From: Membranipora membranacea
Taxonomy: Eukaryota; Bryozoa; Gymnolaemata; Cheilostomatida; Membraniporidae
Direction of reading: 5' to 3'
NCBI GenBank assembly: GCA_914767715.1
Contig: OU612066.1
Coordinates: forward strand, 30,788,283-30,852,282
Length of the DNA stretch: 64,000 bases
Below the pieces are notes generated by a model. It saw only the letters and a list, made by a program, of their open reading frames with translations. It made no database searches and was not told where the DNA came from. Positions 1-55,632 of this stretch are shown one piece after another (within the stretch, counting starts at the first letter, position 1; the number at the start of each line of letters is the position of its first letter). The translations under genes were made by a program, and so were the position numbers.

Positions 1-23
1 AGATCTAAATAGGCAATTGAAAG
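1..23 (+). CDS. Micro-exon H, 3' part only
   Basis: The first 23 bases match the end of the 42-nt H exon at 1426-1467 and are followed by the same GTAGGTTG donor. The window therefore starts inside a micro-exon, and the gene extends upstream. Encodes ..DLNRQLK in the phase 1 frame. Confidence 0.55.
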
Positions 24-3000
24 GTAGGTTGTTGTTGAGGACTAACATGTACATACATTAACCAAAATGAACTGAAAATTCCACTGGTCAGCTGATGTAG
101 ACGTGTTACTCTTGGACCATCAATATTATAATCATTACAGAAGTATTGTATTTTCAGTTGTAATATGATGAACCTGGGAAGAGATTCTTCCAGGTTCATC
201 ATATTGCAACTTACTTCTATGTAGATGCAGTAATGTTTTATTTATCATTTTCAGGAAGCAATGAAGAACTTAAGAGGCATTTAAAAGGTAGGTTGTTGTT
301 GAGGACGAATATGTACTTACATTAACTAAACCAAAATGAACTATAAATTCTATTGGTTAGCTCTTGGACAATCGGCATATTATAATCGTACCAGAAGTAT
401 TGTATTTTCATAAGAAATAGATTTGTTTATGCACTTGAAAAGGGCAGATGTCTTCTCCCTTCCTCAAGTTTTCACTAGGTATTAGCATGTGTGAGTTAGA
501 AGTAGTAATGCTCTTTTATATCATTTCCAGGAAAAATTTGAGTACTCAAGACCTGATTGAGAGATAGGTTGTATTAATAAAAAATTACTGTCCATTCATC
601 TGTATGGTATTCACATTTGTCTGACAGTGATTAAAGGCCTTAAACTTTTACAAATAGATGTAAAAAGTCACGGCAAATGCAGCATTTTCAGTTATACTAA
701 CAATACTGTTGAAACTCCCACTGCCATACAATATCTTGATAGTTGCAGTACTTATAACTACGACCTATTTGTTTTTTTTAACTCTAACCATTGCCATGAT
801 TGCCCTAACTGTCTGTAGAGAAAATTATTTGTTATTGGGATCATGTAACGCCTAGGGGGCCTTCTGTGTGGTATTCTGATGGTGGATTGATGCGAAAACT
901 ACATAAATACATTAAAATTCCATATATCGCTTCACAGTTCTCCAAAACAGTTTGAGAGAATTGTACATTGTATACATTGTCTGTTGTCTGTTACAGAGTA
1001 TGATGATCCAAAACAGACGCTGAGAAGTGAGTAACTGATAAGTCATCATCAGTAACAACTGTAACAGATAAACTATTTTTAGTACATTTTTTGTAGCTTT
1101 ATACAGGCCCTCAAACTATTGCACCACTGAGAATAGGTTGATTTTTGTCCCATACTCAAACAGACTCTTGAGTACGCCTGAATCCCAACATTGACAACTG
1201 GGTTCTGCGCTCCTACCTGCAAACTGCGAGAATTCAAAATTACAACTTGCCTCTATGTTGATGCAGTAATGTTTTATGAGGGGACAACTTCCAAAATACA
1301 ATATTTTCTGACAGTTTGATCAGGGAGGGTTGGAAGAGTTTGATCAGGGAGGGGAGTCTTCCAGGTTCATCACATTACAACTTACCTCTATGTAGATGTA
1401 GTAATGTTTTATTTATCAATTTCAGGAAGAAATGAAGAACTTGCAGATCTAAATAGGCAATTGAAAGGTAGGTTGTTGTTGAGGACTAACATGTACATAC
1501 ATTAACCAAAATGAACTGAAAATTCCACTGGTCAGCTGATGTAGACGTGTTACTCTTGGACCATCAATATTATAATCATAACAACTGTAACAGATAAACT
1601 ATTTTTAGTACATTTTTTGTAGCTTTATACAGGCCCTCAAACTATTGTACCACTGAGAATAGGTTGATTTTTGTCCCATACTCAAACAGACTTTTGAGTA
1701 CGCCTGAATCACAACATTGACAACTGGGTTCTGCGCTCCTACCTGCAAACTGCGAGAATTCAAAATTACAACTTGCCTCTATGTTGATGCAGTAATGTTT
1801 TATTTATCATTTTCAGGAAGAACTGAAGAACTGTCAAGGCAATTTGATGGTATGTTACTGTAGAGGACGAATATGTACTTACACTAACTAAACCAAAATA
1901 AACTATAAATTCTATTGGTTAGCTCTTGGACAATCGGCATATTATAATCGTACCAGAAGTATTGTATTTTCATAAGAAATAGATTTGTTTATGCACTTGA
2001 AAAGGGCAGATGTCGTCTCCCTTTCTCAAGTTTTCACTAGGCATTAGCATGTGTGAGTTAGAAGTAGTAATGTACTTTTATATCATTTCCAGGAAAAAAT
2101 TGAGTACTCAAGACCTGATTGAGAGATAGGTTGTATTATTGTAAAAATTACTGTCCATTCATGTGTATGATATTCTCTTGTGTCTGACACTGATAAAAGG
2201 CCTTAAACTTTTACAAATAGATGTAAAAAGTCACGGCAAATGCAGCATTTTCAGTTATACTAACAATACTGTTGAAACTCCCACTGCCATACAATATCTT
2301 GATAGTTGCAGTACTTATAAATACAATTCTACGATTGGAGACGGATGAGCAAGAATTTGTAATATAGCAAAATTATCTCACCAGTTGGATATGAGGGGAC
2401 AACTTCCAAAATACAACATTTTCTGACAGTTTGATCCCACCCTCCCTGGTTTGATCAGGGAGGGGATTCTTTCAGGTTCTTCAAATTACAACTTGCCTCT
2501 ATGTTGATGCAGTAATGTTTTATTTATCATTTTCAGGAAGAATTGAAGAACTGTCAAGGCAAATTGAAGGTATGTTACTGTAGAGGACGAATATGTACTA
2601 CATTAACTAAACCAAAATGAACTATAAATTCTATTGGTTAGCTCTTGGACAATCAGCATATTATAATCGTACCAGAAGTATTGTATTTTTATAAGAAATA
2701 GATTCGTGTATGCACTACTTGAAAAGGGCAGATGTCTTCTCCCTTCCTCAAGTATTAGTATTAGCAAGTGTGAGTTAGAAGTAGTAATGCTCTTTTATAT
2801 CAATTCCAGGAAAAAATTGAGTACTCAAGACCTGATTGAGAGATAGGTTGTATTAACGTAAAAATTACTGTACATTCATGTGTATGGTATTCACTTTTGT
2901 CTGACACTGATTAAAGGCCTTACACTTTTTCAAATAGATGTAAAAAGTCACGGCAAATGCAGCATTTTCAGTTATACTAACAATACTGTTGAAACTCCCA

Positions 3001-6000
3001 CTGCCATACAATATCTTGATAGTTGCAGTACTTATAAATACGACCTATTTGTTTTTTTTAACTCTAACCATTGCCATGATTGCCCTAACTGTCTGTACAG
3101 AAAATTATTTGTTATTGGGATCATGTAACGCCTAGGGGGCCTTCTGTGTGGTATTCTGATGGTGGATTGATGCGAAAACTACATAAATACATTAAAATTC
3201 CATATATCGCTTCACAGTTCTCCAAAACAGTTTGAGAGAATTGTACATTGTATACATTGTCTGTTGTCTGTTACAGAGTATGATGATCCAAAACAGACGC
3301 TGAGAAGTGAGTAACTGATAAGTCATCATCAGTAACAACTGTAACAGATAAACTATTTTTAGTACATTTTTTGTAGCTTTATACAGGCCCTCAAACTATT
3401 GTACCACTGAGAATAGGTTGATTTTTGTCCCATACTCAAACAGACTCTTGAGTACGCCTGAATCCCAACATTGACAACTGGGTTCTGCGCTCCTACCTGC
3501 AAACTGCGAGAATTCCAAATTACAACTTGCCTCTATGTTGATGCAGTAATGTTTTATTTATCATTTTCAGGAAGAATTGAAGAACTTGAGAGGCAATTTG
3601 AAGGTATGTTACTGTAGAGGACGAATATGTACTTACATTAACTAAACCAAAATGAACTATAAATTGGGAAATTTCTGTGTGAGCTTCTGAAGCAGCCTGT
3701 CTTAACAAGCTTTGTTAAGACAGGCTACTTCTGAAGGTGGTGAAGACAACATTAATACATTGAAGTTCTATATATCGCTTCACTAGTTTTTAAGTTCTCC
3801 AAAACAGTTTGAGGGAATCGTACATGATATGCATTTCTGTTGTCTGTTCAAGAGCAATGATTGAGGCATGATGATCAAATACAGATCATGGAAAGTGAGT
3901 TAATGATGAGCTATCATCAATAATAACTGTAATAGATAAACTATCTTTGGTACATTTTTTGTAGCTTTATACACCCTCAAACTATTGTACCACTGAGAAT
4001 AGGTTGATTTTTGTCCCATACTCAAACAGACTCTTGAGTACGCCTGAATCCCAACATTGACAACTGGGTTCTGCGCTCCTACCTGCAAACTGCGAGAATT
4101 CCAAATTACAACTTGCCTCTATGTTGATGCAGTAATGTTTTATTTATCATTTTCAGGAGGAATGGAAGAATTTGAGAGGCAATTGGAAGGTAGGTTGTTG
4201 TTGAGGTTTTGACTATTTATAATCATTGATAATGGCAGCTTATAATTTTGTTTTCACATTTTTTGAAAATTAAATCAATAGACTGCCTCATGTGTTTTGG
4301 TATAGTAGTGTATGAATTCATGTGATTCAAGGATTTGGTGGCACCTTATGAAAGAAAGTGCCGATGTTCCAACTGTTGTCATCATTGTAGATCCGTGTAG
4401 TAGCCTACTTACAAATACGACCTATTTGTTTTTTTTAACTCTAACCATTGCCATGATTGCCCTAACTGTGTGCACAGAAGATTATTTGTTATTGGATCAT
4501 GTAACGCCTTGGGAGCTTTCTGTGTGGGATTCTGATGGTGGATTGATGCGAAAACTACATGAATACATTAGAGTTCCATATATCGCTTCACAGTTCTCCA
4601 AAATAGTTTGAGAGAATTGTAAATGATAGATTTTTGTTGTCTGTTCCAGAGGCCCAATCGAAGCATGATCATCAAGTAGAGACCATGGACAGTGAGTAAA
4701 TGATGAGCCATCATCAATAATAACTGTAAGAGATAAACTATCTTTAATACATTTTTTGTAGCTTTATACAGGCCCTCAAACTATTGTACCTACCGAGAAT
4801 AGGTTGATTTCGTCCAACACTCAAACAGACTCTTGAGTACGCCTGAATCCCAATATTGACAATTGACAACTGGGTTCTGCGCTCCTACCTGCAAACTGCG
4901 AGAATTCCATTCCTCAGCCTGAGACCCAATGATTTAAAAAAAAAACTTCAATTAGTAATGGTGTGACCAAGAATTACTCCTTACTGTGCCTATTTCGAAC
5001 AAAGTGGGTAGTGTGTTTGTAGTGCTGTAGACCTAGTGCTATTTAAGCTAGTGTAGATACTAGCCCCCCCCCCCCACCCATTTTTTTTGGTTATTGTAGA
5101 GGACGAATATGTACTTACATTAACTAAACCAAAATGAACTATAAATTCTATTGGTTAGCTCTTGGACAATCGGCATATTATAATCGTACCAGAAGTATTG
5201 TATTTTCATAAGAAATAGATTTGTTTATGCACTTGAAAAGGGCAGATGTCTTCTCCCTTCCTCAAGTTTTCACTAGGCATTACCATGTGTGAGTTAGAAG
5301 TAGTAATGCACTTTTATATCAATTCCAGGAAAAAATTGAGTACTCAAGACCTGATTGAGAGATAGGTTGTATTAACGTAAAAATTACTGTACATTCATGT
5401 GTATGGTATTCACTTTTGTCTGACACTGATTAAAGGCCTTACACTTTTACAAATAGATGTAAAAAGTCACGGCAAATGCAGCATTTTCAGTTATACTAAC
5501 AATACTGTTGAAACTCCCACTGCCATACAATATCTTGATAGTTGCAGTACTTATAAATACGACCTATTTGTTTTTTTTAACTCTAACCATTGCCATGATT
5601 GCCCTAACTGTCTGTACAGAAAATTATTTGTTATTGGGATCATGTAACGCCTAGGGGGCCTTCTGTGTGGTATTCTGATGGTGGATTGATGCGAAAACTA
5701 CATAAATACATTAAAATTCCATATATCGCTTCACAGTTCTCTTAAACAGTTTGAGAGAATTGTACATTGTATACATTGTCTGTTGTCTGTTACAGGGCAG
5801 CAATTGAAATATGCAGGCATTCCCATGTTAGAGCTGAGAAAAAACACTGTTTACCTTATGTTTAATTATGTGTAGGCGCTTTGTTTTCACTTCACTGTAC
5901 CATACTCAATCTGATATGCTGTTCCACGGGATATTGTTGTCTGATCAACAAATGCTTAAACATGTATTTCAGGTGCTACCACACATGAAAGCAATCAAAC

Positions 6001-9000
6001 TTCTAATTTGGATGAAATCTTTTACTTGTATGCAATTAATCAGACAATGGTTATGAGCAGTAATGCAGTGAAACTATTATTATTTTAGTCGAGGGGTCAG
6101 TTGCAATGTCTGGGAGACTTTCTGACCAAGACGAGAAGTCTATGTCTGCTTACGACGATAAGTTGAATAAAGATGCTGACCGGCTGCGAGCTGGTCAAGA
6201 TGGGCAGACTGCAAAGGTTGCAATATCAGATCAGAGCCGTTTATCGAGTGATGATGATGGTGAGTCAGAAGATGATGGTAAATACTGTTTAAGATGCAAA
6301 CAATGTTCAATGTGAAAAAGGAAAAAATGGGAAAGTCTTACATCAAAGCAAAATAAGGGGGATATATACCCTGCCCATGCTAGGGGGATACCATGACATT
6401 ATTTTCTTTGGTTTTTGTTTTACTTTTCACTAATAAAGATCTACTCATATTCACTGTAGCCACAATATCTATCTATTCAAATGTATAATATTCTTTTGTG
6501 TCTGACATCGATTAAAGGCCTTAAACTCTTACAATTGGATGTAAAAAGTCACGCCAAATGTAGCATATCCAATTATAACAATACTGCTGAAACTCCCACT
6601 GCCATACATTATCTTGATAGTTGCAGTAGCCTACTTAAAAATGAGACTTATTTTGTTTTTTAACTCTAACCGTTGCCATGATTGCCCGAACTGTCTGCAC
6701 AAAAGATTATTTGTTCTTGGGATCGTGTAACGCCTTGGGAGCTTTCTGTGTGGGATTTTGAAGGTGGTGAAGACAACATTTATACATTGAAGTGCTTTGC
6801 TAATTTTCAAGTTATTTATTTTATAATTATATTTTATATGTAGTTATATATTATTAACAAACAAATATTATTTACAATTATAAATTATATTCAATTATAT
6901 ATTCTATTCAATTCTATTTTATATACAATTATGTAAATACATTGAAGTTCCATATATCGCTTCACAGTTCTCCAAAACAGTTTGAGAGAATTGTACATTG
7001 TATACATTGTCTGTTGTCTGTTACAGAGTATGATGATCTAAAACAGACCTGGACAAGTGAGTAAATGATAAGTCATCATCAGTAACAACTGTAATAGATA
7101 AACTATTTTTAGTACATTTTTTGTAGCTTTATACAGGCCCTCAAACTATTGTACCACTGAGAATAGGTTGATTTTTGTACCATACTCAAACAGACTCTTG
7201 AGTACGCCTGAATCACAACATTGACTATTGGGATCTGCGCTCCTACCTGCAAACTGCGAGAATTCCATTCCTCAGCCTGAGACCCAATGATTTAAAAAAA
7301 AACTTCAAATTAGTAATGGTGTGACCTGCAATAACTCCTTACTGTGCCTATTTCGAGAACATAATCTGCAGTGCGTTTGTAGTGCTGTAGTCCTAGTGCT
7401 ATTTAAGCTAGTGTAGATACTAGCCGCCCCCACCAATTTTCTGTTGGAGCTGAGACAAGGCTAACGTGTTAGTTAAACAAATTAGACTAAAACTCTCCAA
7501 TACAATTCTACGATTGGAGACGGATGAGCAAGAATTTGTAATATAGCAAAATTATCTCACCAGTTGGATATGAGGGGACAACTTCCAAAATACAACATTT
7601 TCTGACAGTTTGATCCCCACCCTCCCTGGTTTGATCAGGGAGGGGAATCTTCCAGGGTCATCATATTACAACTTACCTCTATGTAGATGTAGTAATGTTT
7701 TATTTATCATTTTCAGGAATGCTTGAAGAGTATCAGAAGGAATTGATAGGTATGTTATTGTAGAGGACGAATATGTACTTACATTAACTAAACCAAATGA
7801 ACAAACAGACTCTTGAGTACCCCTGAATCCCAACATTGACAAATGGGTTCTGCGCTCCTACCTGCAAACTGCGAGAATTCCAAATTACAACTTGCCTCTA
7901 TGTTGATGCAGTAATGTTTTATTTATCATTTTCAGGAAGAATTGAAGAACTGTCAAGGCAAATTAAAGGTATGTTACTGTAGAGGACGAATATGTACTTA
8001 CATTAACTAAACCAAAATGAACTATAAATTGGGAAATTTCTGTGTGAGCTTCTGAAGCAGCCTGTCTTAACAAGCTTTGTTAAGACAGGCTACTTCTGAA
8101 GGTGGTGAAGACAACATTAATACATTGAAGTTCTATATATCGCTTCACTAGTTTTTAAGTTCTCCAAAACAGTTTGAGGGAATCGTACATGATATGCATT
8201 TCTGTTGTCTGTTCAAGAGCAATGATTGAGGCATGATGATCAAATACAGATCATGGAAAGTGAGTTAATGATGAGCTATCATCAATAATAACTGTAATAG
8301 ATAAACTATCTTTGGTACATTTTTTGTAGCTTTATACACCCTCAAACTATTGTACCACTGAGAATAGGTTGATTTTTGTCCCATACTCAAACAGACTCTT
8401 GAGTACGCCTGAATCCCAACATTGACAACTGGGTTCTGCGCTCCTACCTGCAAACTGCGAGAATTCCAAATTACAACTTGCCTCTATGTTGATGCAGTAA
8501 TGTTTTATTTATCATTTTCAGGAGGAATGGAAGAATTTGAGAGGCAATTGGAAGGTAGGTTGTTGTTGAGGTTTTGACTATTTATAATCATTGATAATGG
8601 CAGCTTATAATTTTGTTTTCACATTTTTTGAAAATTAAATCAATAGACTGCCTCGTGTGTTTTGGTATAGTAGTGTATGAATTCATGTGATTCAAGGATT
8701 TGGTGGCACCTTATGAAAGAAAGTGCCGATGTTCCAACTGTTGTCATCATTGTAGATCCGTGTAGTAGCCTACTTACAAATACGACCTATTTGTTTTTTT
8801 TAACTCTAACCATTGCCATGATTGCCCTAACTGTGTGCACAGAAGATTATTTGTTATTGGATCATGTAACGCCTTGGGAGCTTTCTGTGTGGGATTCTGA
8901 TGGTGGATTGATGCGAAAACTACATGAATACATTAGAGTTCCATATATCGCTTCACAGTTCTCCAAAATAGTTTGAGAGAATTGTAAATGATAGATTTTT

Positions 9001-12000
9001 GTTGTCTGTTCCAGAGGCCCAATCGAAGCATGATCATCAAGTAGAGACCATGGACAGTGAGTAAATGATGAGCCATCATCAATAATAACTGTAAGAGATA
9101 AACTATCTTTAATACATTTTTTGTAGCTTTATACAGGCCCTCAAACTATTGTACCTACCGAGAATAGGTTGATTTCGTCCAACACTCAAACAGACTCTTG
9201 AGTACGCCTGAATCCCAATATTGACAATTGACAACTGGGTTCTGCGCTCCTACCTGCAAACTGCGAGAATTCCATTCCTCAGCCTGAGACCCAATGATTT
9301 AAAAAAAAAACTTCAATTAGTAATGGTGTGACCAAGAATTACTCCTTACTGTGCCTATTTCGAACAAAGTCGGTAGTGTATTTTTGTAGTGCTGTAGTCC
9401 TAGTGCTATTTAAGCTAGTGTAGATACTAGCCCCCCCCCCCACCCATTTTTTTGGTTATTGTAGAGGACGAATATGTACTTACATTAACTAAACCAAAAT
9501 GAACTATAAATTCTATTGGTTAGCTCTTGGACAATCAGCATATTATAATCGTACCAGAAGTATTGTATTTTCATAAGAAATAGATTTGTTTATGCACTTG
9601 AAAAGGGCAGATGTCTTCTCCCTTCCTCAAGTTTTCACTAGGCATTACCATGTGTGAGTTAGAAGTAGTAATGCACTTTTATATCGATTCCAGGAAAAAA
9701 TTGAGTACTCAAGACCTGATTGAGAGATAGGTTGTATTAACGTAAAAATTACTGTACATTCATGTGTATGGTATTCACTTTTGTCTGACACTGATTAAAG
9801 GCCTTACACTTTTACAAATAGATGTAAAAAGTCACGGCAAATGCAGCATTTTCAGTTATACTAACAATACTGTTGAAACTCCCACTGCCATACAATATCT
9901 TGATAGTTGCAGTACTTATAAATACGACCTATTTGTTTTTTTTAACTCTAACCATTGCCATGATTGCCCTAACTGTCTGTACAGAAAATTATTTGTTATT
10001 GGGATCATGTAACGCCTAGGGGGCCTTCTGTGTGGTATTCTGATGGTGGATTGATGCGAAAACTACATAAATACATTAAAATTCCATATATCGCTTCACA
10101 GTTCTCCAAAACAGTTTGAGAGAATTGCACATTGTATACATTGTCTGTTGTCTGTTACAGGGCAGCAATTGAATTATGCAGGCATTCCCATGTTAGAGCT
10201 GAGAAAAAACACTGTTTACCTTATGTTTAATTATGTGTAGGCGCTTTGTTTTCACTTCACTGTACCATACTCAATCTGATATGCTGTTCCACGGGATATT
10301 GTTGTCTGATCAACAAATGCTTAAACATGTATTTCAGGTGCTACCACACATGGAAGCAATCAAACTTCTAATTTGGATGAAATCTTTTACTTGTATACAA
10401 TTAATCAGACAATGGTTATGAGCAGTAATGCAGTGAAACTATTATTATTTTAGTCGAGGGGTCAGTTGCAATGTCTGGGAGACTTTCTGACCAAGACGAG
10501 AAGTCTATGTCTGCTTACGACGATAAGTTGAATAAAGATGCTGACCGGCTGAGAGCTGGTCAAGATGGGCAGACTGCAAAGGTTGCAATATCAGATCAGA
10601 GCCGTTTATCGAGTGATGATGATGGTGAGTCAGAAGATGATGGTAAATACTGTTTAAGATGCAAACAATGTTCAATGTGAAAAAGGAAAAAATGGGAAAG
10701 TCTTACATCAAAGCAAAATAAGGGGGATATATACCCTGCCCATGCTAGGGGGATACCATGACATTATTTTCTTTGGTTTTTGTTTTACTTTTCACTAATA
10801 AAGATCTACTCATATTCACTGTAGCCACAATATCTATCTATTCAAATGTATAATATTCTTTTGTGTCTGACATCGATAAAAGGCCTTAAACTCTTACAAT
10901 TGGATGTAAAAAGTCACGCCAAATGTAGCATATCCAATTATAACAATACTGCTGAAACTCCCACTGCCATACATTATCTTGATAGTTGCAGTAGCCTACT
11001 TAAAAATGAGACTTATTTTGTTTTTTAACTCTAACCGTTGCCATGATTGCCCGAACTGTCTGCACAAAAGATTATTTGTTTTTGGGATCGTGTAACGCCT
11101 TGGGAGCTTTCTGTGTGGGATTTTGAAGGTGGTGAAGACAACATTTATACATTGAAGTGCTTTGCTAATTTTCAAGTTATTTATTTTATAATTATATTTT
11201 ATATGTAGTTATATATTATTAACAAACAAATATTATTTACAATTATAAATTATATTCAATTCTATATTCTATTCAATTCTATTTTATATACAATTATATA
11301 TTATATACAACTATATTTAATAATCAATTACAGATTATATACAATTATGTATTTTATAAATAATATATTATATACAATTATATTTTATAATCAATTACAT
11401 ATTATATACAATAATATATTATATACAATTATATATTATATACAACTATATATTATTTACAATTATGTAAAATTATTTACAATTAACATTATACAATAAA
11501 CAATATACAATTATATATAAATATACCACAATTATAACATGCTGGTAGCGCGAGAGTCCCAACTGAGTTCAAATCCCGGTGAAGAAAGATTTTATTTACA
11601 TCTCTTTTACTACTTGCATGGTGGTTTAACTTGTTTTGTTTTGGTACCTATTTATTAATTCTTACACCCACTACATCATCAAATTTAAACACCTGGATTA
11701 ATTCGCAATGAGCTTTGCTGGCTTCAGCGGCCCAGCGTGGCTGAGCGGTTGGAGTGTTTGATGTCAGCCTGAGTTCAAGAGTCCGCCTGAATCCCAACAT
11801 TGACTATTGGGTTCTGCACTCCTACCTTCTAACTGCGAGAATTCCATTTCTCAAAATTTGGATCTTGCGTTTTTAAGAACAATTTTAAATTGTTTTATGA
11901 CCAGCAATTACTCATTACTAATTCCCTGTTTCATTATCCAGATATTGCAGGTCAGTTTGGAGATCTAGAGTTAGCAGATGATGATAGTGATGATAACGCT

Positions 12001-15000
12001 TCCTTGACAACCAGTCAACCTCCAACACAACCAATATTGGAAGGGGTAAGGAAAGGTTTTCCAAGCATTTAAATAAAAAAGAACAGATCACATTCTTCAA
12101 TAAAATGTAGGCAAACTGCAAAACATATTTGTACCCATGACTTGAGACGATTATGATTTTCGGAGGTGTAATATGAGGGGAGGGGGGGTGGTGTGATTTT
12201 CCCTTTAAAGTGGTTGATTATTACTTTGATTTTCAAATGTTTATCACTGCCAGAGGAGGTGCAGCGTCAGACCAGCTAGTTTGTCAGCTTGTTATTTCTG
12301 TCAACCAGTGAGTAACACTTTTAGTTTTGGCACAGGCTGCCAGAACAGGGTAAATATGGTGCCAACCACTCCATGAGATTCACCGACGATAATAAATTGA
12401 TACCTTAGCCAAACAAGCTATAAACAGTGCTTGCCATATTAGCTTGATATGTTTGATGTTGTGCAGTTGTTGTCTTGATACACAAGTTAACTGCCCACAG
12501 TCAGTAACCAGCTGTCTTTATGACAAATATAATGTATTGTTGTCAAATCTCTGCAATTTCACCACAACCATAAGGTAGTAACCGAATTGGTAAAAACGCC
12601 TAAGTCATATGTATTATTTATATTGTTTTCTCCATCCCAATAAAAATTATGTTTCTTTTATTTCTTATTCAGAATGACATGACTGTGCAAAAGTTCACAG
12701 AGATGGAAAACTGTGTGAGAGAAAGGATCGCTGAGTTCCGCTCAGCAGATGACTGCCTTCAGGTCACGATTGTATGGATGCGTTCAAGAAACACCTGCAA
12801 ATCTATGTTTCACTTGATCGCTGGATCTCTAAATGAACCCATGGACTTTGAAAACGGGGATAAAGTTGTAAGCACCCATTGGTTTCTAAATGATCAACTC
12901 CACCAATGTATAAAAGAGAATTGTGAAAAAGCACTGCGGTCATTGGAAGGCCAAGACAAGGTAGAAGCTCTGTTGAAAAACAATCCCAGTTTCGTGGTCA
13001 CCAGATCTCTGCCTACTTATGAACCCTGTGACGAAGAAAGTGAGGGTGGCAGTGACAATGAAGACGAGAGTGAAGAAGAATACTGCTATAAATGCAATGA
13101 TATCGTGCTCCCTGAGGAGCAGCCAGGAAACGAAGCATACGTTCATGTTAACAGCGACTTGAAGATGGAGGTCTATAAGCCTCAAAGTCCTTCAAAGATC
13201 AAATATCTGTCTACACAGTATAGGCAGTTCATGGAGGATGGTGAGGTGTGTTTCATAAATTCATTTGACAATTTTAGCCACTCTAACTGACCTGAAATGC
13301 GAAAATCATGGAGTGAAACCTAGAAAGTAACCCTACTAATCTCGATGAGCATTTCATAATAACATGATAACATCACCAAATTATTTATGTGGCACAATAC
13401 TTGATTTTGGGGTATTACTATTTATGACTGAAGATTGTTGTCCGCATAAACTTAAATAATAATAATAATAAAATAAACCTTGAATGCGGAGAAATGACTC
13501 GTTGGCCAAACCAGGGAGTAATGTCCCCAACTCCCTGGCCAAACCCATACCTACACCTTTTTAAAAGCAGGAATCCAATGATGCCAAAATTATATAATTT
13601 CCGCGTTATTATTTAAGATCATATCACCTAAACGACCTTATTTTATATTTCAGAAATATAAAATCTACAATATATACCGGATCAGACAGAAACTTAAGCA
13701 AGCAACCGAACAGATCAGGAGGTATAATGATAGAAGTGGTGTTGTTGAGGTGAGATTACAAGAAAGAAGACAGAGAGCACTATTTCCGTCCTCCTTATTT
13801 TTTAAACACTTTTGTTGGCAGTCTAATTCATTCCATTAGCGGAATGTTTTCCAAATAGTGCCGAAAAAAAAGAGGAAAAGGAAACTGCTACTCAATCAAA
13901 CATCACAACAGTTATGATGGCGTGGCCTAGGGCTCTATTATTAATAATCTTGAGTTTGAACCGATGTCACCAACTTTTTGGCTGGTTGGAATGGACAAGT
14001 AGTTAAAAAATGACACTTCACATTAAACACATGTAACGACCAATTGTGTAATTGAGATCCAGCAGTAATTGTAGACACTTGGTAGTCCATCTGCAGGGAT
14101 TTACTTGTGCGGGGAGTAATAATATGGACAAAAAGTTTTTTTATGAGACTTACTTTTACCAATTTGCTATGCTCAAATTTAAATCCTAATATCTTTTGAC
14201 ATGGAGTGGAGCGTAACATGACTTGTCAAGACAGGCTACATTGAGCCATATTTAATAACGTAAATTATGATGATTAATGATCTATTGATTTATAATTCAC
14301 TAGAAAATCAAAATTTGCTGTGCACCTGCTGTGGCACACATTGTGACCCTGTCATTTAACTATAAACTGAACTCAAAATTATTGTATTCCTACACTTTTT
14401 CATATCTAATTTCCTTTAAAAAAAGAAAATTAGCTCTCAAAAATCCATCTGCGGAGTCAAATATAGTTGAGGAATGAAAAGATATAATGATTTTCAAAAA
14501 TAATAACTATTTACTGAGAAAAATTGCTAAATGTAAATCAGTCATTATTGATTGATAGGGCATTGTTTATGAGTGTCCCACCTATGACATCAAATCATTC
14601 CTTATCAATGTTAACAAATTGTCATGATGTATTTGGCGCCAAAATGCAGCAATACAAAATCGCAATAGGTTGATCTATCAACCTGGATAGGGATGGGAGA
14701 AAGTGAATCTGAACTCAATTGAAGTTTCTATGATAAGATTACTGCATCATAGGATGCTGCAATATCGCCCACTTACATAACCATGACATAAATTTACACT
14801 TTTATAATATTTGTTTTGCTTTTTGGCAGGTAAAAAATGTTTCAACAGCGATCACTGTTGTCAGTCGGCTTCTTCTCAAGAACTCCAAGAGCCAATCTGA
14901 TGCCACTGTGTTTATTCATAGAGGTCTGATTCGTTTTGCTAATAATCACACTCATATTCTGGAGAGTAGCTATGAAGGAGCCTGGACAGCCTCTATCTCT

Positions 15001-16508
15001 CATTTCTACTGTGAGGATCTGGACAAGCTTGCCGCAGGTCAGTTGGAAGGCGAGAACATCAAGATCTGCCTTCTAGAGTTAGACAAGCCCAAGCCAATGC
15101 ATTACAATAAAGAGATATCTGTCAGCTTTGCTGCGGATGATGGTGATGATGGTGATGATGGTGTTCTCCAGCTAGCAGTTGATGCCGAATTCGAGCACAA
15201 CACCAAGAAGGATCCTGATGGACTCAGCAAGAAGTTTACTCTGGAAGTTTTCAACACAGACCCACAAAATGAAATGGTGAGTCATCCCATATAATCTCAT
15301 ATAAATGCCAAAATCCCTTCATTCAAACCACTGTCAATAGTAAATTGCATTGTCATTCTTTTTCTCAGCTCACTGCACAAGACATCTCTGACCTTCAAAT
15401 AATACTAGGAGGGAAAGAGGATGGTATCAAGTCGGATGCACAAGCTGACATGGGGAATGTCGTAGTGTGTGAAGTCGTTATAGGTTCAAGGCTAAAGAGA
15501 ACCATGACACCATCATGTCGAGCAAAACTGGTCAAGTACAGAGCGGATCCGAGAATAGAAAAGACGCATCGTGTCATCATGGCCCTCGGAAATTCGTCAA
15601 ACATTAAACTCCCACGATCAATTACATACCGAGATCCACTTACCACAGCAGTGTTTTTTAGTCGGACTGTAACAAATGATGACTTAGCCAGGAAACTCGA
15701 ATCATACTATAAAGCTAAGTTTGACAAGCTTGATACCAGTAGCAACAGACAATGCAAGAAACTGAAGAAGATGGAGGGAGTGACACCCTTTCAGCAGCAC
15801 CTACATGCGTGTCCTGCCATCACTCCAAATATCAGTTCCATGAGCAATCAATGCGAGTGCAAGTTCAATGATGAACTGTTTTCCTTTGAGCAACACAGTA
15901 TGAAAGTCAACTCATTGGATAGCTATGCTGTTGCAAACGCAGTTGAAATTGGACAACAAATTCAGAGGTTTGAGGAGCAAGATTTGAATGGCGTTCACTC
16001 AACAACACCAGGCTCAGATAGTAGTGGTTGTGACTCCCCTCGGCACTCAATTGGTGAAGAAGAGCTTGGTACAAGGCCAAAAAGAGTTGCTGGAATCGGT
16101 CTCCGTGGCAAGAGTTGTATAACACAGGATTCTTATGAACGTATCAAGCAGTACATAGAAGGATATCTGCCAAACTCATTCCTATTTCCAACAGCTCAAA
16201 TGGCTATACAGACAATCGGACCGCCTGCTAATTTTGGTGCACACCGTGAATGTTTGGTTAATTGGGTTGATGATAGTGCTCATATACCATTCCATGTTCC
16301 TGGCTGGGAAGCTAACTGCCAACTCACTGATAGAGAAATGGAGAAATCGTTCGGTTTGACAAAGGAGCAAACGCTTGCCCATCCGCAGAGAACAACATCC
16401 TACGCTGACGGCCTCCCCTGCTGTGATTTTGGTACATATTATTACATATTATTACCTTTTTTAGTTCTTTCATTGGCGATCTTATATATATATATTCCAT
16501 CAATTTAG
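1..16508 (+). CDS. Locus A: micro-exon coiled-coil gene (5' end outside window)
   Basis: I do not recognise this protein. The model joins 33-nt (H) and 30/42-nt (Q) micro-exons, exon T or S, and exons A (11951-12045), B (12673-13245), C (13654-13749), D (14830-15276) and E (15369-16508). All H, Q, T and S junctions are phase 1, A runs from phase 1 to phase 0, and B-E are phase 0, so the frame stays open from the array to the stop at 16506-16508. The N-terminal part would be a hendecad coiled coil, then an acidic Ser/Asp-rich linker, then about 750 residues without a domain I can name. There are no signal peptide or catalytic motifs that I recognise. A paralogue (locus B) lies about 30.3 kb downstream on the same strand. 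Exon order and inclusion are inferred from splice sites only. Confidence 0.6.
255..287 (+). CDS. Micro-exon H (SNEELKRHLK)
   Basis: 33 nt between TTTATCATTTTCAG and GTAGGTTG. Phase 1-1. Encodes S-N-E-E-L-K-R-H-L-K, with the joining residue (Gly after another H exon, Arg after a Q exon) made across the splice. Confidence 0.55.
531..563 (+). pseudogene. Dead H micro-exon, donor lost
   Basis: The 33 nt after TTTCCAG align with H exons, but the donor position reads ATAGGTTG where live H exons have GTAGGTTG, and the phase 1 frame contains stops. Similar dead copies start at 2093, 2810, 5329, 9694, 30819 and 40008, with small length changes in an A run (this copy has 5 A, most have 6, the one at 40008 has 7). 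Confidence 0.45.
997..1026 (+). CDS. Micro-exon Q30 (YDDPKQTLR)
   Basis: 30 nt between CTGTTACAG and GTGAGTAA. Phase 1-1. Encodes Y-D-D-P-K-Q-T-L-R; the leading codon is completed by the upstream exon (Glu after an H exon). Confidence 0.5.
1426..1467 (+). CDS. Micro-exon H, 42-nt form (RNEELADLNRQLK)
   Basis: An H exon three codons longer than usual (ADLN in place of a single residue), still phase 1-1, with the canonical TTTCAG acceptor and GTAGGTTG donor. Its 3' part is the same as the exon cut by the window start. Confidence 0.55.
1817..1849 (+). CDS. Micro-exon H (RTEELSRQFD)
   Basis: 33 nt after TTTATCATTTTCAG, donor GTATGTTA. This is the second donor flavour seen in the array. Phase 1-1. 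Confidence 0.55.
2093..2125 (+). pseudogene. Dead H micro-exon, donor lost
   Basis: Aligns to H exons after TTTCCAG; the phase 1 frame stops at the third codon and the donor is AT where GT is expected. Confidence 0.4.
2537..2569 (+). CDS. Micro-exon H (RIEELSRQIE)
   Basis: 33 nt, acceptor TTTCAG, donor GTATGTTA, phase 1-1. Hydrophobic residues I, L and I are spaced 3-4. Confidence 0.55.
2810..2842 (+). pseudogene. Dead H micro-exon, donor lost
   Basis: Same decayed form as the copy at 2093, after AATTCCAG. Confidence 0.4.
3277..3306 (+). CDS. Micro-exon Q30 (YDDPKQTLR)
   Basis: Same exon and flanks as 997-1026, part of a copied cassette of about 2280 bp. Acceptor TTACAG, donor GTGAGTAA. 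Confidence 0.5.
3571..3603 (+). CDS. Micro-exon H (RIEELERQFE)
   Basis: 33 nt between ATCATTTTCAG and GTATGTTA, phase 1-1. Confidence 0.55.
3694..3726 (+). repeat. 15-bp inverted repeat, 3-bp spacer
   Basis: Arms 3694-3708 and 3712-3726 are exact inverted copies. Direct repeats CTTCTGAAG flank the palindrome. The same unit recurs near 8059-8091 and 36487-36519 in copied cassettes. Confidence 0.8.
3853..3894 (+). pseudogene. Q42-like exon with stops in all frames
   Basis: 42 nt aligned with Q42 exons, but the acceptor is CAAG, not CAG, and all three frames contain stops. The GTGAGTTA donor remains intact. It is either dead or a poison exon. Copies lie at about 8218-8259 and 36650-36691. Confidence 0.35.
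4157..4189 (+). CDS. Micro-exon H (GMEEFERQLE)
   Basis: 33 nt, acceptor TTTCAG, donor GTAGGTTG, phase 1-1. The tandem copy is at 8522-8554. Confidence 0.55.
4650..4691 (+). CDS. Micro-exon Q42 (AQSKHDHQVETMD)
   Basis: 42 nt between CTGTTCCAG and GTGAGTAA, phase 1-1, giving 14 residues including the joining codon (two heptad lengths). Confidence 0.5.
5329..5361 (+). pseudogene. Dead H micro-exon, donor lost
   Basis: Decayed H copy with an AT donor; its tandem copy is at 9694. Confidence 0.4.
5796..5839 (+). pseudogene. Q-like exon with lost donor
   Basis: Begins like the Q42 exon at 37692 (QQL after GTTACAG). After about 20 nt it is replaced by unrelated sequence, and the GTGAGT donor is replaced by AAAAAC. 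Copies start at 10161 and 40476. Confidence 0.3.
5973..6059 (+). CDS. Candidate exon T (29 aa, mutually exclusive with S)
   Basis: 87 nt between GTATTTCAG and GTAATG, phase 1-1, with two N-Q-T sequons around a hydrophobic stretch (DEIFYLY). The same 87-nt open frame and splice sites are kept in the copies at 10338, 29930 and 40653. The donor lacks the usual G at -1, so support is moderate. It ends only 29 bp before exon S starts. Confidence 0.35.
6089..6277 (+). CDS. Exon S, acidic linker, first copy
   Basis: 189 nt, phase 1-1, between TATTATTTTAG and GTAAAT. Encodes about 62 hydrophilic residues, beginning VEGSVAMSGRLSDQDEKSMS and ending in an Asp/Ser/Glu-rich tail. A second in-frame donor, GTGAGT after 6259, would shorten the exon by 18 nt (GESEDD). 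An internal ATG (MSGRLS) could also act as a start codon if transcription began nearby. Confidence 0.55.
6825..6945. repeat. AT-rich minisatellite, short form
   Basis: Imperfect TTATATACAATTATA-type units. A longer version is at 11170-11535 and 41480-41845; this copy has lost most of the array. Confidence 0.6.
7027..7056 (+). CDS. Micro-exon Q30 (YDDLKQTWT)
   Basis: 30 nt between GTTACAG and GTGAGTAA, phase 1-1. Confidence 0.5.
7717..7749 (+). CDS. Micro-exon H (MLEEYQKELI)
   Basis: 33 nt, acceptor TTTCAG, donor GTATGTTA. A divergent H subtype that starts with Met; related exons are at 36362 and 38290. Confidence 0.5.
7936..7968 (+). CDS. Micro-exon H (RIEELSRQIK)
   Basis: 33 nt, phase 1-1, donor GTATGTTA. 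Lies only 186 bp after the previous H exon, the shortest intron in the array. Confidence 0.5.
8522..8554 (+). CDS. Micro-exon H (GMEEFERQLE)
   Basis: Tandem copy of 4157-4189, 4365 bp downstream; identical exon. Confidence 0.55.
9015..9056 (+). CDS. Micro-exon Q42 (AQSKHDHQVETMD)
   Basis: Tandem copy of 4650-4691, identical, with a GTGAGTAA donor. Confidence 0.5.
9694..9726 (+). pseudogene. Dead H micro-exon, donor lost
   Basis: Copy of the decayed exon at 5329. Confidence 0.4.
10338..10424 (+). CDS. Candidate exon T, second copy
   Basis: 87 nt, phase 1-1. Differs from the first copy by E to G and A to T replacements, with the frame kept. Again 29 bp before exon S. Confidence 0.35.
10454..10642 (+). 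CDS. Exon S, acidic linker, second copy
   Basis: The same 62 residues as 6089-6277, with both in-frame donors (after 10624 and after 10642). As the S copy nearest to exon A, it is the likelier one to be joined to it. Confidence 0.55.
11170..11535. repeat. AT-rich minisatellite
   Basis: Imperfect tandem TATACAATTATATAT-type units over about 360 bp in the S-A intron; the same array is at 41480-41845. Confidence 0.75.
11541..11600 (+). repeat. tRNA-like 3' half (SINE remnant)
   Basis: Contains GAGTTCAAATCCCGG, a good Pol III B box, after a weak A-box-like GGTAGCGCGAG. The acceptor stem does not pair, so this is not a functional tRNA. Copy near 41856-41910. Confidence 0.35.
11727..11862 (+). 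repeat. tRNA-derived SINE, most complete copy
   Basis: A tRNA-like head with an A box (GTGGCTGAGCGGTTGGAG) and a degenerate B box (GAGTTCAAGAGTCC) runs into a body (CGCCTGAATCCCAACATTGA through CTGCGAGAATTCC). The body alone recurs in many introns of the micro-exon array. The copy in locus B is at about 42043-42170. Confidence 0.5.
11951..12045 (+). CDS. Exon A, acidic Ser/Asp linker
   Basis: 95 nt after GATATTGCAG, donor GTAAGG; enters in phase 1 and leaves in phase 0, converting the array phase to that of the downstream exons. Encodes 31 residues with an acidic LADDDSDDNAS stretch and a Pro/Gln-rich end. Confidence 0.6.
12673..13245 (+). CDS. Exon B, 191 aa, unrecognised
   Basis: Phase 0-0, from NDMTVQKF to QFMEDGE, acceptor TTATTCAG, donor GTGTGT. 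The first half is mixed alpha/beta in character with several Cys. The second half has an acidic run (EESEGGSDNEDESEEE) followed by CYKCND, a CxxC-like pair with no obvious partner. The upstream MFLLFLIQ would be intron translated through. Replacements against locus B greatly outnumber silent changes (15 to 3). Confidence 0.65.
13654..13749 (+). CDS. Exon C, 32 aa basic helix
   Basis: 96 nt, phase 0-0, acceptor ATATTTCAG, donor GTGAGA. Basic, helix-prone IYRIRQKLKQATEQIRRYN. Too short to show as a long ORF, but conserved in locus B at 44899-44994. Confidence 0.6.
14830..15276 (+). CDS. Exon D, 149 aa, unrecognised
   Basis: Phase 0-0, starting VKNVSTAITVV after TTTGGCAG and ending DPQNEM before GTGAGTC. 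Includes an in-frame GATGATGGT codon repeat (DDGDDGDDG) that is much shorter in locus B. The reading frame upstream of 14830 is intronic. Confidence 0.65.
15369..16508 (+). CDS. Exon E, C-terminal ~380 aa with hydrophobic tail
   Basis: Begins LTAQDISDLQIILGG after TTTCTCAG, in phase 0, and runs open to a stop at 16506. No family recognised. Contains a basic KKLKKMEG segment and clustered Cys/His. The last 25 residues (from GTYYY, with LLPFLVLSLAILYIYI) are hydrophobic and could anchor the protein in a membrane. A donor-like GGTACA at 16432 leaves open splicing to a further exon not seen here. Locus B has an unrelated short tail. Confidence 0.6.
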   Translation, partial: LTAQDISDLQIILGGKEDGIKSDAQADMGNVVVCEVVIGSRLKRTMTPSCRAKLVKYRADPRIEKTHRVIMALGNSSNIKLPRSITYRDPLTTAVFFSRTVTNDDLARKLESYYKAKFDKLDTSSNRQCKKLKKMEGVTPFQQHLHACPAITPNISSMSNQCECKFNDELFSFEQHSMKVNSLDSYAVANAVEIGQQIQRFEEQDLNGVHSTTPGSDSSGCDSPRHSIGEEELGTRPKRVAGIGLRGKSCITQDSYERIKQYIEGYLPNSFLFPTAQMAIQTIGPPANFGAHRECLVNWVDDSAHIPFHVPGWEANCQLTDREMEKSFGLTKEQTLAHPQRTTSYADGLPCCDFGTYYYILLPFLVLSLAILYIYIPSI

Positions 16509-19655: not shown

Positions 19656-20987
19656 GCTCTTGGTGGTGGAAATCTAAAATTCGGACACATTGAGGGTATG
19701 TGATTAAATATCAACAGAAAGATGGATCTGAATAGAGCTTTTGCTGTGTGGCGGATTGATCCTCCGTGGAAAGCAATCACCAAAAAGGGTCAAGGCTCTC
19801 GTATGGATGGAGGTAAAGGTGGCAATAATCATTACGTCTTTCCTATTAAAGCTGATCGGATCGTCGTGGAAGTCGGTGGTGAGTTGTCCATATTCATGAT
19901 GTTTCTGTGTTATTAAATAAATAAATCTGTATCAAGTTGGTATGATCTGTTAGTCTCATTTAGGACACAGTTTAATTAGCATGTCTTTCTAAATCAAGAC
20001 TGGAAACAAATGAGGGTGATAATCATTTTTTTCTCTCTTGCAAGTAAGACTGAAACGATCTGCTTCAGCGTACAAAATAACAGCAGTTATATATATTAAT
20101 TGATGACTATAAGCACTGATATAATATTCATATCAATGACTATAATAAATAGCCAGTATCTGACCCTTTGAGATGTGTTCGGTGGGAAGATCCCTCAATC
20201 GGAGTGTCCCATTTCGTGTAGTTTGATGAGAGTGACATACAACTGAAAATCTAACCAATGTGACGTTTGCCCATCATTATTCAAATGCAGAGTTACCCGC
20301 TCCCTGACATTAAGTGGAATACTCAATTGTTTAGACATGCTGTGCTCATTTTCTCTTGCACCCTGGCCTTGAGTGCATCCAAAAATACGAAGCCTTGTCA
20401 GCATACTCTGGTATCTTTCACAGAATGTTGGTTATAGTGACTATTTCTTCTTGTTTGCATGGTCTTATCTACTCTATGCGCAGCACCAGCTGCGTGGTGT
20501 GCTGCTGAGTTACATGTGCACCAGTGATTTGGTTTCTGTTTTGGCCATGTGATCGGCTGTTTGTCAATCCATCCATCTATCAGTCAATGGCAAAACAGAA
20601 ACCAAAACACTGGTGCACATGTAACTCATTAGTACACCATGCAGCTGGTGCTGTGCATAGAGTAGATAACACCATGCAAGCAAGAAAAATAATCACTAAG
20701 ACCAACATACGGCGAGATACTCTGGTACCAGGGTATACAGACAAGGCTTCATATGTTTGGCTTGAATACCAAGCTAGCGGTATATATGCTTTTTTGATTA
20801 GCCAGTAAAATGCTCTATTTTTTCCATTTCACAACAGATGCTGGAAGATGAGGCAGCAGAAAAGGAAAGGCTTGAAAAACTGAACATTAATTCATTCAGT
20901 TTCCAATATGCCGCTGACAATAATTTGCTCGGCTGCCAACAATATATAGGCAAATATGACTATGTGTGGCATAATAAATACCGGTAG
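19656..20987 (+). pseudogene. MRPL16: MRPL16 fragment with stop codon and missing exon
   Basis: Mitochondrial ribosomal protein L16 belongs to the large subunit and sits near the peptidyl-transferase region. Exon 19656-19878 (ALGGGNLKFGHIEGM, then LNINRKMDLNRAFAVWRI, GSRMDGGKGGNNHYV and IKADRIVVEVGG) and exon 20838-20987 (MLEDEAAEKERLEKLN to DYVWHNKYR and stop) match the central and C-terminal parts of the family. Two faults are visible. An in-frame TGA at 19701-19703 falls where relatives usually have Arg. The roughly 30 residues between the exons cannot be found; the first exon ends in phase 1 and joining it directly to the last shifts the frame. No N-terminal exons were found upstream. Likely a decayed or partial copy. 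Confidence 0.7.
20405..20725. mobile_element. Foldback (long inverted repeat) element
   Basis: Left arm about 20405-20551 and right arm about 20586-20725 are near-perfect inverted copies (for example GTTACATGTGCACCAGTG on the left against CACTGGTGCACATGTAAC on the right), with a short spacer. The open frame across it is a by-product of the palindrome. It lies where the MRPL16 middle exon should be. Confidence 0.75.
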
Positions 20988-34326: not shown

Positions 34327-34359
34327 GAAGAAATGAAGTACTTGAGAGGCAATTGGAAG
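34327..34359 (+). CDS. Micro-exon H (RNEVLERQLE)
   Basis: 33 nt, acceptor TTTCAG, donor GTAGGTTG. Val at the position that is Glu in most copies. Confidence 0.55.
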
Positions 34360-37300
34360 GTAGGTTGTTGTTGAGGACTAACATGTACATACATTAACCA
34401 AAATCAACTGAAAATTCCACTGGTGAGCTGATGTAGACGTATTACTCTTGGACCATATACATTATAATCATTACAGAAGTATTGTATTTTCAGTTGTAAT
34501 ATGATGAGATTCCCCTCCCTGATCAAACCAGGGAGGGGAATCTTCCGGGTTCATCATATTACAACTTACCTCTATGTAGATGTGGTAATGTTTTATTTAT
34601 CATTTTCAGGAAGAAATCGCGACCTTTTTGTTTTTTTTAACTCTAACCATTGCCATGATTGCCCTAACTGATTCCATTTCTCAGCCTGAGACCCAATGAT
34701 TTTGAATAAAACTTCAAATTAGTAAAAGTGTGACCTGCAATAATTCCTTACTGTGCCTATTTCGAACATAGTCTGCAGTGTGTTTGTAGTGCTGTAGTCC
34801 TAGTGCTATTTAAGCTAGTGTAGATACTAGCCGCCCCCACCCATTTTTTTGTTGGAGCTGAGACAAGGCTAACGTCTTAGTTAAACAAATTAGACTAAAA
34901 CTCTCCAATACAATTCTACGATTGGAGACGGATGAGCAAGAATTTGTAATATAGCAAAATTATCTCACCAGTTGGATATGAGGGGACAACTTCCAAAATA
35001 CAACATTTCTGACAGTTTGATCAGGGAGGGTGGAAAGGGTTTGATCAGTGAGGGGATTCTTTCAGGTTCTTCAAATTACATCTTGCCTCTATGTTGATGC
35101 AGTAATGTTTTATTTATCATTTTCAGGAAGAAATGAAGAACTTGAGAGTCAATTGGAAGGTAGGTTGTTGTTGAGGACTAACATGTACATACATTAACCA
35201 AAATCAACTGAAAATTCCACTGGTGAGCTGATGTAGACGTATTACTCTTGGACCATATACATTATAATCATTACAGAAGTATTGTATTTTCAGTTGTAAT
35301 ATGATGAGATTCCCCTCCCTGATCAAACCAGGGAGGGGAATCTTCCGGGTTCATCATATTACAACTTACCTCTATGTAGATGTGGTAATGTTTTATTTAT
35401 CATTTTCAGGAAGAAATCGCGACCTTTTTGTTTTTTTTAACTCTAACCATTGCCATGATTGCCCTAACTGTCTGCACAGAAGATTATTTGTTATTGGGAT
35501 CATGTAACACCTAGGGGGCCTTCTGTGTGGTATTCTGATGGGGGATTGATGCGAAAACTACATGAACACATTAAAATTCCATATATTGCTTCACAGTTCT
35601 CTAAAACAGTTTGAGAGAATTGTAAATGATAGATTTCTGTTGTCTGTTCCAGAGGACCAATTGAGGCGTGCTCATCAAATACAGACCAAGAAAAGTGAGT
35701 AAATGATGATCCATCATCAATAATAACTGTAAGAGATAAACTATCTTTAATACATTTTTTGTAGCTTTATACAGGCCCTCAAACTTTTGTACCTACCAAG
35801 AATAGGTTGATTTTGTCCAATACTCAAACAGACTCTTGAGTACGCCTGAATCTCAATATTGACAATTGACAACTGGGTTCTGCGCTCCTACCTGCAAACT
35901 GCGAGAATTCCATTCCTCAGCCTGAGACCCAATGATTTAAAAAAAAACTTCAAATTAGTAATGGTGTGACCTGCAATAACTCCTTACTGTGCCTATTTCG
36001 TGAACATAATCTGCAGTGTGTTTGTAGTGCTGTAGTCCTAGTGCTATTTAAGCTAGTGTAGATACTAGCCGCCCCCACCCATTCTTTTGTTGGAGCTGAG
36101 ACAAGGCTAACGTCTTAGTTAAACAAATTAGACTAAAACTCTCCAATACAATTCTACGATTGGAGACGGATGAGCAAGAATTTATAATATAGCAAAATTA
36201 TCTCACCAGTTGGAAATGAGGGGACAACTTCCAAAATACAACATTTTCTGACAGTTTGATCCAACCCTCCCTGGTTTGATCAGGGAGGGGAATCTTCCAG
36301 GTTCATCATATTACAACTTACCTCTATGTAGATGTAGTAATGTTTTATTTATCATTTTCAGGAATGCATGAAGAGCATCAGATGGAATTGAGAGGTATGT
36401 TATTGTAGAGGACGAATATGTACTTACATTAACTAAACCAAAATGAACTATAAATTGGGAAATTTCTGTGTGAGCTTCTGAAGCAGCCTGTCTTAACAAG
36501 CTTTGTTAAGACAGGCTACTTCTGAAGGTGGTGAAGACAACATTAATACATTGAAGTTCTATATATCGCTTCACTAGTTTTTAAGTTCTCCAAAACAGTT
36601 TGAGGGAATCGTACATGATATGCATTTCTGTTGTCTGTTCAAGAGCAATGATTGAGGCATGATGATCAAATACAGATCATGGAAAGTGAGTTAATGATGA
36701 GCTATCATCAATAATAACTGTAATAGATAAACTATCTTTGGTACATTTTTTGTAGCTTTATACACCCTCAAACTATTGTACCACCGAGAATAGGTTGATT
36801 TTGTACCATACTCAAACAGACTCTTGAGTACGCCTGAATCTCAACATTGACTATTGGGATCTGCGCTCCTACCTGCAAACTGCGAGAATTCCATTCCTCA
36901 GCCTGAGGCCCAATGATTTAAAAAAAAACTTCAAATTAATAATGGTGTGACCTGCAATAACTCCTTACTATGCCTATTTCGAGAACATAATCTGCAGTGT
37001 GTTTGTAGTGCTGTAGTCCTTATGCTATTTAAGCTAGTGTAGATACTAGCCGCCCCCACCCACTTTTTTGTTGGAGCTGAGACAAGGCTAACGTCTTAGT
37101 TAAACAAATTAGACTAAAACTCTCCAATACAATTCTACGATTAGAGACGGATGAGCAAGAATTTATAATATAGCAAAATTATCTCACCAGTTGGATATGA
37201 GGGGACAACTTCCAAAATACAACATTTTCTCACAGTTTGATCCCACCCTCCCTGGTTTGATCAGGGAGGGAATCTTCCAGGTTCATCATATTACAACTTA

Positions 37301-55570: not shown

Positions 55571-55632
55571 ATGCCTCGAATGGCTTTGGATACTAGCCAT
55601 GTTATATTAGCGGCAGCGGTAGCAGTTTTCTG
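55571..55632 (+). CDS. CCP gene exon 1, signal peptide
   Basis: MPRMALDTSHVILAAAVAVF, then a split Trp codon completed by exon 2 (WLPHLISGQG). Hydrophobic core ILAAAVAVFWL; cleavage is likely around ISG-QG just before the first CCP Cys. The donor is GTGAGT. This ATG is chosen because it gives a secretory leader. Confidence 0.8.

Follow-up and report, generated by a model that had tools for sequence, protein, structure and literature searches.

Why should exons of 30 to 42 nucleotides (nt), repeated in tandem ahead of an ordinary gene body, differ more from copy to copy than the introns in which they lie, and what do they encode? The question is raised by a 64,000-nt stretch of the genome of the bryozoan Membranipora membranacea (assembly GCA_914767715.1, contig OU612066.1, positions 30,788,283 to 30,852,282 of the forward strand), which is called here the window and to whose first base all coordinates refer. 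The window was read as a whole, and its gene content marks it as animal DNA; its plus strand holds two tandem copies of one gene, locus A and locus B, in which repeated intron segments upstream of a set of constant exons carry micro-exons of two types, H and Q. The micro-exons are more diverged than their introns, and we think that this is the strongest feature of the array. The best explanation, which the sequence makes probable, is a tandem-duplicated gene whose micro-exon array, evolving by birth and death, codes for an amphipathic, coiled-coil-like helix, the coding exons being under diversifying selection.

The array of locus A extends from 1 to about 10.6 kb and its constant exons as far as 16508; its 5' end is beyond the window edge, the sequence upstream of base 1 lying outside the window. 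In locus B the array occupies about 34.3 to 40.9 kb and the constant exons reach 47044, with scattered relics from about 29.9 kb. An earlier reading made from the letters alone (the sequence-only reading) had counted at least 15 H exons, of which locus A has 10 and locus B 5, and the number 15 holds: 14 are complete and one is cut at 1-23. All 14 complete H exons, as well as the nine open Q exons interspersed with them (four of 30 nt and five of 42 nt), are bounded by AG before and GT after. The size of 33 nt that had been given to the H exons is right for 13 of the 14 complete ones, but the copy at 1426 and the cut copy belong to a 42-nt type. An H exon thus codes for 11 residues (three turns) or 14, a Q exon for 14 (four turns) or 10, and H plus a 30-nt Q for 21. 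Since the H and Q units are tandem duplicates, their number is not independent evidence. The micro-exons are the following.

1..23, plus: H exon, 42-nt type, cut by the window edge; its letters match the 3' 23 nt of 1426-1467 and are followed by gtaggt
255..287, plus: H exon GSNEELKRHLK, AG/GT flanks, open in phase 1
997..1026, plus: Q exon, 30 nt, cag/gtgagt flanks, open in phase 1
1426..1467, plus: H exon, 42-nt type, reading RNEELADLNRQLK after Q, open in the joined peptide
1817..1849, plus: H exon GRTEELSRQFD
2537..2569, plus: H exon GRIEELSRQIE
3277..3306, plus: Q exon, 30 nt
3571..3603, plus: H exon GRIEELERQFE
4157..4189, plus: H exon GGMEEFERQLE
4650..4691, plus: Q exon, 42 nt
7027..7056, plus: Q exon, 30 nt
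7717..7749, plus: H exon GMLEEYQKELI
7936..7968, plus: H exon GRIEELSRQIK
8522..8554, plus: H exon GGMEEFERQLE
9015..9056, plus: Q exon, 42 nt
34327..34359, plus: H exon, locus B, GRNEVLERQLE
35127..35159, plus: H exon, locus B, GRNEELESQLE
35653..35694, plus: Q exon, locus B, 42 nt
36362..36394, plus: H exon, locus B, GMHEEHQMELR
37692..37733, plus: Q exon, locus B, 42 nt
38290..38322, plus: H exon, locus B, GMLDERKKELK
38547..38576, plus: Q exon, locus B, 30 nt
38839..38871, plus: H exon, locus B, GRIEELERQLE
39332..39373, plus: Q exon, locus B, 42 nt

In both loci six exons follow the array, and together they give an intact reading frame: exon A has 171 nt and is of phase 1-1, exon 2 has 95 nt and passes from phase 1 to 0, and the remaining four are joined in phase 0.

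6089..6259, plus: upstream copy of exon A, locus A (171 nt, phase 1-1)
10454..10624, plus: exon A, locus A (171 nt, phase 1-1, open in phase 1 only); a second possible donor follows 10642
11951..12045, plus: constant exon 2, locus A, phase 1 to 0, open in phase 1 only
12673..13245, plus: constant exon 3, locus A, 191 open codons, with 21 and 10 stops in the other phases
13654..13749, plus: constant exon 4, locus A
14830..15276, plus: constant exon 5, locus A
15369..16508, plus: constant exon 6 to the stop, locus A, with a donor-like gt after 16431
40769..40939, plus: exon A, locus B
42266-42360, 43960-44532, 44899-44994, 45417-45848 and 45941-47044, plus: constant exons 2-6, locus B, joined frame intact

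These exons also settle the frame of the array. In locus A exons A and 2 are open in phase 1 only, exons 3, 5 and 6 in phase 0 only and exon 4 in two phases; because exons A and 2 admit phase 1 alone and exon 3 phase 0 alone, the array is fixed to phase 1. Phase 0 of the distinct 33-nt H exons and open Q exons contains 12 stops and phase 2 contains 30, whereas phase 1 has none, which supports the phase 1 frame with symmetric 1-1 borders as originally proposed. On minimum spanning trees the synonymous fraction of the changes is 0.10 in phase 1, where 0.228 is expected; in phase 0 it is 0.233 (0.20 expected) and in phase 2 0.294 (0.24 expected), so that it falls under expectation in phase 1 alone.

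The divergence of the micro-exons was compared with that of their introns in several ways. In close self-alignments, defined as those of at least 200 nt and at least 90% identity, divergence is 0.197 for H (721 aligned bases) and 0.137 for open Q (504), against 0.034 for intron (35,889), 0.023 for the stop-bearing elements called X (771) and 0.004 for exon A (513); the comparison leaves out 209 "mixed" bases with unlike labels (0.187) and 126 bases of stop-bearing Q (0). Open micro-exons thus exceed intron 4-6 times in close alignments and 2.3-2.5 times in all alignments, and X shows no such excess. On spanning trees the differences are 53/396 in H and 37/3034 in its flanks, 21/168 and 34/1396 for 42-nt Q, 7/90 and 21/1025 for 30-nt Q, the flanks being trimmed at breakpoints, which lowers their figure. 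Without trimming, the 28 of 94 same-length pairs in which both 60-nt flanks are at most 10% diverged (66 fail this filter) differ at 152/960 exon sites (0.158) and 96/3354 flank sites (0.029); with 100-nt flanks, where 77 fail, the 17 remaining pairs give 64/597 and 70/3394. A first pairwise comparison had given pooled values of 0.254 against 0.080 for H and 0.249 against 0.064 for Q; several of its pairs are misaligned across the exon, and the spanning-tree, close-alignment and flank-filtered figures are preferred. The 24 intron bases ahead of the H exon are invariant across the 13 33-nt copies, which constraint on splice signals can explain; the same constraint can hardly account for flanks of 60 to 200 nt.

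The differences within the exons are of a particular kind. Changes on the minimum spanning trees, counted in phase 1, amount to 6.0 synonymous (S) and 64.0 nonsynonymous (N), with a binomial p of 0.007, 0.0007 and 0.00006 at kappa 1, 2 and 4; the ratio of transitions to transversions in the introns, 652:578, puts kappa near 2, so that p = 0.0007 applies. An alternative count (S 7, N 63) gives p = 0.005 and H alone p = 0.024. These counts exclude the stop-bearing Q as well as the 42-nt H and the cut H, and the bias rests on few, non-independent sites; the concentration of amino-acid-changing differences in exons, in phase 1, is nonetheless beyond chance. The nearest pairs are almost wholly nonsynonymous, with 5 N and 0 S between 7717 and 38290 and 10 N and 0 S between 4650 and 35653. 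Diversifying selection on the array exons can therefore be proposed with moderate confidence.

As for what is encoded, the complete open micro-exons of locus A, joined in genomic order before the first copy of exon A, give a peptide of 103 residues in which E, R, Q and L abound. At E <=0.01 there are 11 Pfam families that match it; many of these are helical or coiled-coil, none attains its curated cut-off, and none of five shuffled versions of the peptide matches any family; the joined peptide of locus B has three Pfam matches. Among the Protein Data Bank (PDB) sequences 19 match the 103 residues at E <=1, led by apolipoprotein A-IV (E 1.3e-5) and BICD family-like cargo adapter 1 (E 0.0035). 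Matches of the apolipoprotein and coiled-coil type are common for helices rich in these four residues. Within the distinct 33-nt H peptides a hydrophobic residue is found at position 10 in 12 of 12, at position 6 in 10 (Y counted) and at position 3 in 7, and outside this narrow hydrophobic face the residues are charged. All locus A micro-exons joined (160 residues) have a peak period of 3.56, a strength reached by 0 of 2000 shuffles; H exons joined alone peak at 3.66 in locus A and 3.72 in locus B, the copies not being independent. Homologous repeats inflate such tests, and for this reason the shuffles are not used as proof. The array peptide is likely helical. The sequence-only reading had gone further, taking each exon as one hendecad with 3-4-4 spacing. 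The full spacing is present in 6 of the 12 distinct 33-nt H peptides, but the rest lack at least one core hydrophobic residue, and the equation of one exon with one hendecad is too simple: exons of 10 and 14 residues intervene, and the joined period is 3.56 rather than 3.67. Exons can be skipped or added with the frame kept, as had been suggested, but the coiled-coil register is not always the same. What is supported is an array of length-modular exons coding for amphipathic helix repeats ahead of a constant gene body.

Several results weigh against the explanation given at the outset. For a strict hendecad the hydrophobic-moment test gives a weak result (joint permutation p = 0.07), and the joined peptide of locus B (107 residues) is weakly periodic, its peak at 3.56 being reached by 443 of 2000 shuffles, or 83 of 2000 for H alone. 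In unfiltered self-alignments the excess is smaller, with 0.244 for H, 0.263 for 42-nt Q and 0.240 for 30-nt Q against 0.105 for intron, X being at 0.105 as well. A blind scan for 33-nt peaks of variability did not single out the micro-exons: an overlap with H or Q is seen for 9 of the 45 peaks listed, and the remaining 36 fall in other parts of the repeats, possibly at breakpoints of rearrangement. Between the loci, the pooled constant exons behave in the opposite way to the micro-exons, differing at 109 of 2427 sites (4.5%) against 229 of 2826 (8.1%) in their introns, which speaks for the explanation; but this contrast, on which the case does not depend, is uneven: exon 6 differs at 52/1063 nt and the 92-nt intron before it at 1/92, the intron after exon A at 11/1326, and single introns at 0.8 to 21%. 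Such a mosaic of exons and introns points to gene conversion; the ratio of nonsynonymous to synonymous divergence (dN/dS) of the constant region is 0.73. The synonymous sites of H, too, exceed intron divergence, with a synonymous proportion (pS) of 0.254 over all pairs and a pN/pS of 1.07. Finally, a codon model on H alone fits best at omega 2-3, not significantly over 1 (lnL -190.07 against -191.47 at omega 1, kappa 1; kappa 0.5 and 1 were tried).

The last two results favour the main rival to diversifying selection, a possible though less likely one, namely that ancient exon lineages sit on introns that conversion and unequal crossing over have made uniform in recent times, with no continuing positive selection and only selection against exon homogenisation, or chance. 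Given the high synonymous divergence of H, part of the excess may indeed have this origin, and mosaic repeats and near-identical tracts between the loci are plain. The rival would, however, need conversion boundaries close to both exon edges, repeatedly, and it fits poorly with the nearest pairs, which have the shortest hidden history and are nonetheless almost wholly nonsynonymous. It has also to be asked whether the micro-exons are used at all. Tandem duplication could have multiplied an intron-exon unit that then decayed, with translation starting from an ATG inside exon A; an in-frame ATG is found there, and several units are broken (H truncated twice, Q interrupted by a stop three times, the X and T elements, and exon A truncated near 30046). 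Disused debris should evolve like intron, and instead the open exons are stop-free in phase 1 and outpace intron with an amino-acid bias, which makes this history decidedly unlikely.

The nature of the helix has an alternative of its own, as the repeats might make, instead of a coiled coil, an amphipathic helix that binds lipid, like those of apolipoproteins or synucleins. The 11-residue units would suit it, as does the leading PDB match; Pfam Apolipoprotein also matches (E 4.4e-5), at 23.7 bits far under its cut-off of 90. Coiled-coil entries match as well, and the hydrophobic face formed by positions 3, 6 and 10 is narrow, with charge elsewhere; a lipid-binding helix thus appears unlikely.

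The preferred explanation, a micro-exon array under diversifying selection, can be laid out as a mechanism. Near-identical intron repeats, a common phase, symmetric exons, broken relics, divergence focused on exons and a phase 1 bias to amino-acid change are all seen in the window. The symmetric phase 1-1 micro-exons, H with 11 or 14 residues and Q with 10 or 14, would encode the N-terminal part of the gene, each contributing an amphipathic stretch of alpha helix, which probably forms a coiled coil, before exon A and the constant body. Recombination between the intron repeats would gain, lose and swap exons, selection for amino-acid change would drive their divergence, and the exons included may differ among messenger RNAs. 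The variable helix might then recognise or pair with a changing partner, in immune, allorecognition or reproductive conflict; exons that outpace introns point to a role in conflict or recognition. A wider and more doubtful proposal, offered tentatively, is that of a germline repertoire, possibly outside flatworms, in which selected, splice-combined micro-exons build variable coiled-coil or amphipathic stalks before a constant body, for recognition in immunity, allorecognition or fertilisation. If transcripts confirm the array, one micro-exon would stand for about three or four helix turns, and exon number and splicing could tune helix length and partner specificity.

Besides the open exons, the array contains two truncated H, three stop-bearing Q, three T and seven X elements.

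5329..5365, plus: X element, 37 nt, with a stop in phase 1; also at 531, 2093, 2810, 9694 and 30819, and with 38 nt at 40008
3853..3894, plus: Q-like element with TGA in phase 1; further copies at 8218 and 36644
10161..10240, plus: T element, a Q-like start reading into a stop; also at 5796 and 40476
34610 and 35410: truncated H starts, running into other sequence without a donor
near 30046: truncated copy of exon A

The edges of X are AG/GT-like. Compared with its own flanks, X differs at 2/185 sites against 39/598 in 5 of 15 pairs and at 4/333 against 98/1781 in 9 of 15; X as a decayed exon was dropped, since it has diverged less than these flanks. Its stop would terminate translation if spliced in, yet X is the less diverged part; candidate readings are a regulatory (poison) exon and an element of the intron. 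T would be either an alternative last exon or debris. Inverted repeats at 156-211, 34492-34566 and 35292-35366 have arms that are 95-100% complementary and end 43 nt upstream of the H acceptors 255, 34610 and 35410; hairpins in the pre-messenger RNA are possible. The stretch 32014-32082 is exon-like and lies behind an acceptor; the sequence upstream of that acceptor is found again at 4377, 8742 and 39059, joined there to other sequence. The stretch is perhaps an original exon of the ancestral gene.

For the constant body, of about 780 residues after exon A, no family was identified in the Pfam, PDB and contig comparisons. The sole Pfam match is DUF7605, at 13.1 bits (E 0.092) under the curated cut-off of 27; the best PDB sequence matches have E 1.1 (exon 6) and 0.68 (exon 3); and among viral and genome contigs exon 6 has no relative that tblastn confirmed. 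AlphaFold2 models from two-row alignments have a mean predicted local distance difference test score (pLDDT) of 31.2 for exon 6 and 38.9 for exon 3. Searches with ARAGORN for tRNAs and with Rfam at gathering thresholds were negative. Other genes are also present in the window.

19722-19878: exon of a ribosomal protein L16 gene (Pfam Ribosomal_L16, E 6.3e-11), perhaps mitochondrial L16
22924-25473, minus: open reading frame of 849 amino acids with RVT_1 (E 2e-42) and Exo_endo_phos_2 (E 1.4e-10), the reverse transcriptase and endonuclease of a non-LTR (long terminal repeat) retrotransposon
25850-27413: gene with an in-frame TGA (Pfam Rdx, E 0.0024, under its cut-off), which we take to be selenoprotein-H-like, with the TGA within a CKSU-like motif
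about 55570-63010: exons resembling a sushi-domain gene (Pfam Sushi, E 7.9e-10, for a piece near 62750 only)

With known systems the array shares separate traits. Its 11-residue amphipathic units, and the Pfam and PDB sequence matches, are like those of hendecad and apolipoprotein repeats of 11 or 22 residues; these usually sit inside larger exons, not one per micro-exon. Among the matches listed from the open-licence PubMed Central (PMC) literature there is no coiled-coil array with one repeat per micro-exon, which is not proof of absence. As in arthropod Dscam and human tandem duplicated exon substitutions, duplicated exons feed a constant body (PMC3236188, PMC9741552); the exons there are described as mutually exclusive, and those of Dscam code for parts or the whole of immunoglobulin domains, whereas here they measure 30-42 nt and cumulative use is possible. 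Conotoxin superfamilies resemble the array in that introns are conserved while mature peptides differ (PMC3862624), but there the exons, two or three per gene, belong to separate genes and are not repeated within one, and no homology is implied.

The closest known kind are the micro-exon genes (MEGs) of flatworms. As described, they have most of their coding region in very small symmetrical exons, all have a signal peptide and they are apparently restricted to platyhelminths (PMC4350168). The likeness lies in the very small symmetric exons (here of 30, 33 and 42 nt, phase 1-1), which make frame-neutral splicing variants possible, and in accelerated protein evolution, a MEG feature: the mature regions of MEG-1, -9 and -15 have dN/dS >1 (PMC4350168). 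Some MEGs are also described as having amphipathic helices (PMC5825161). Two types of tandemly repeated micro-exon set the array apart from MEGs, and in the visible part most coding sequence lies outside them: in locus A the 480 nt of complete open micro-exons are followed by ordinary exons that, with exon A, total about 2.5 kb. VAL-6, described as having a MEG-like portion (PMC4350168), is a nearer comparison. If the explanation preferred here is true, the principle of micro-exon genes would also hold for a gene of composite build, in which a large constant body follows such exons.

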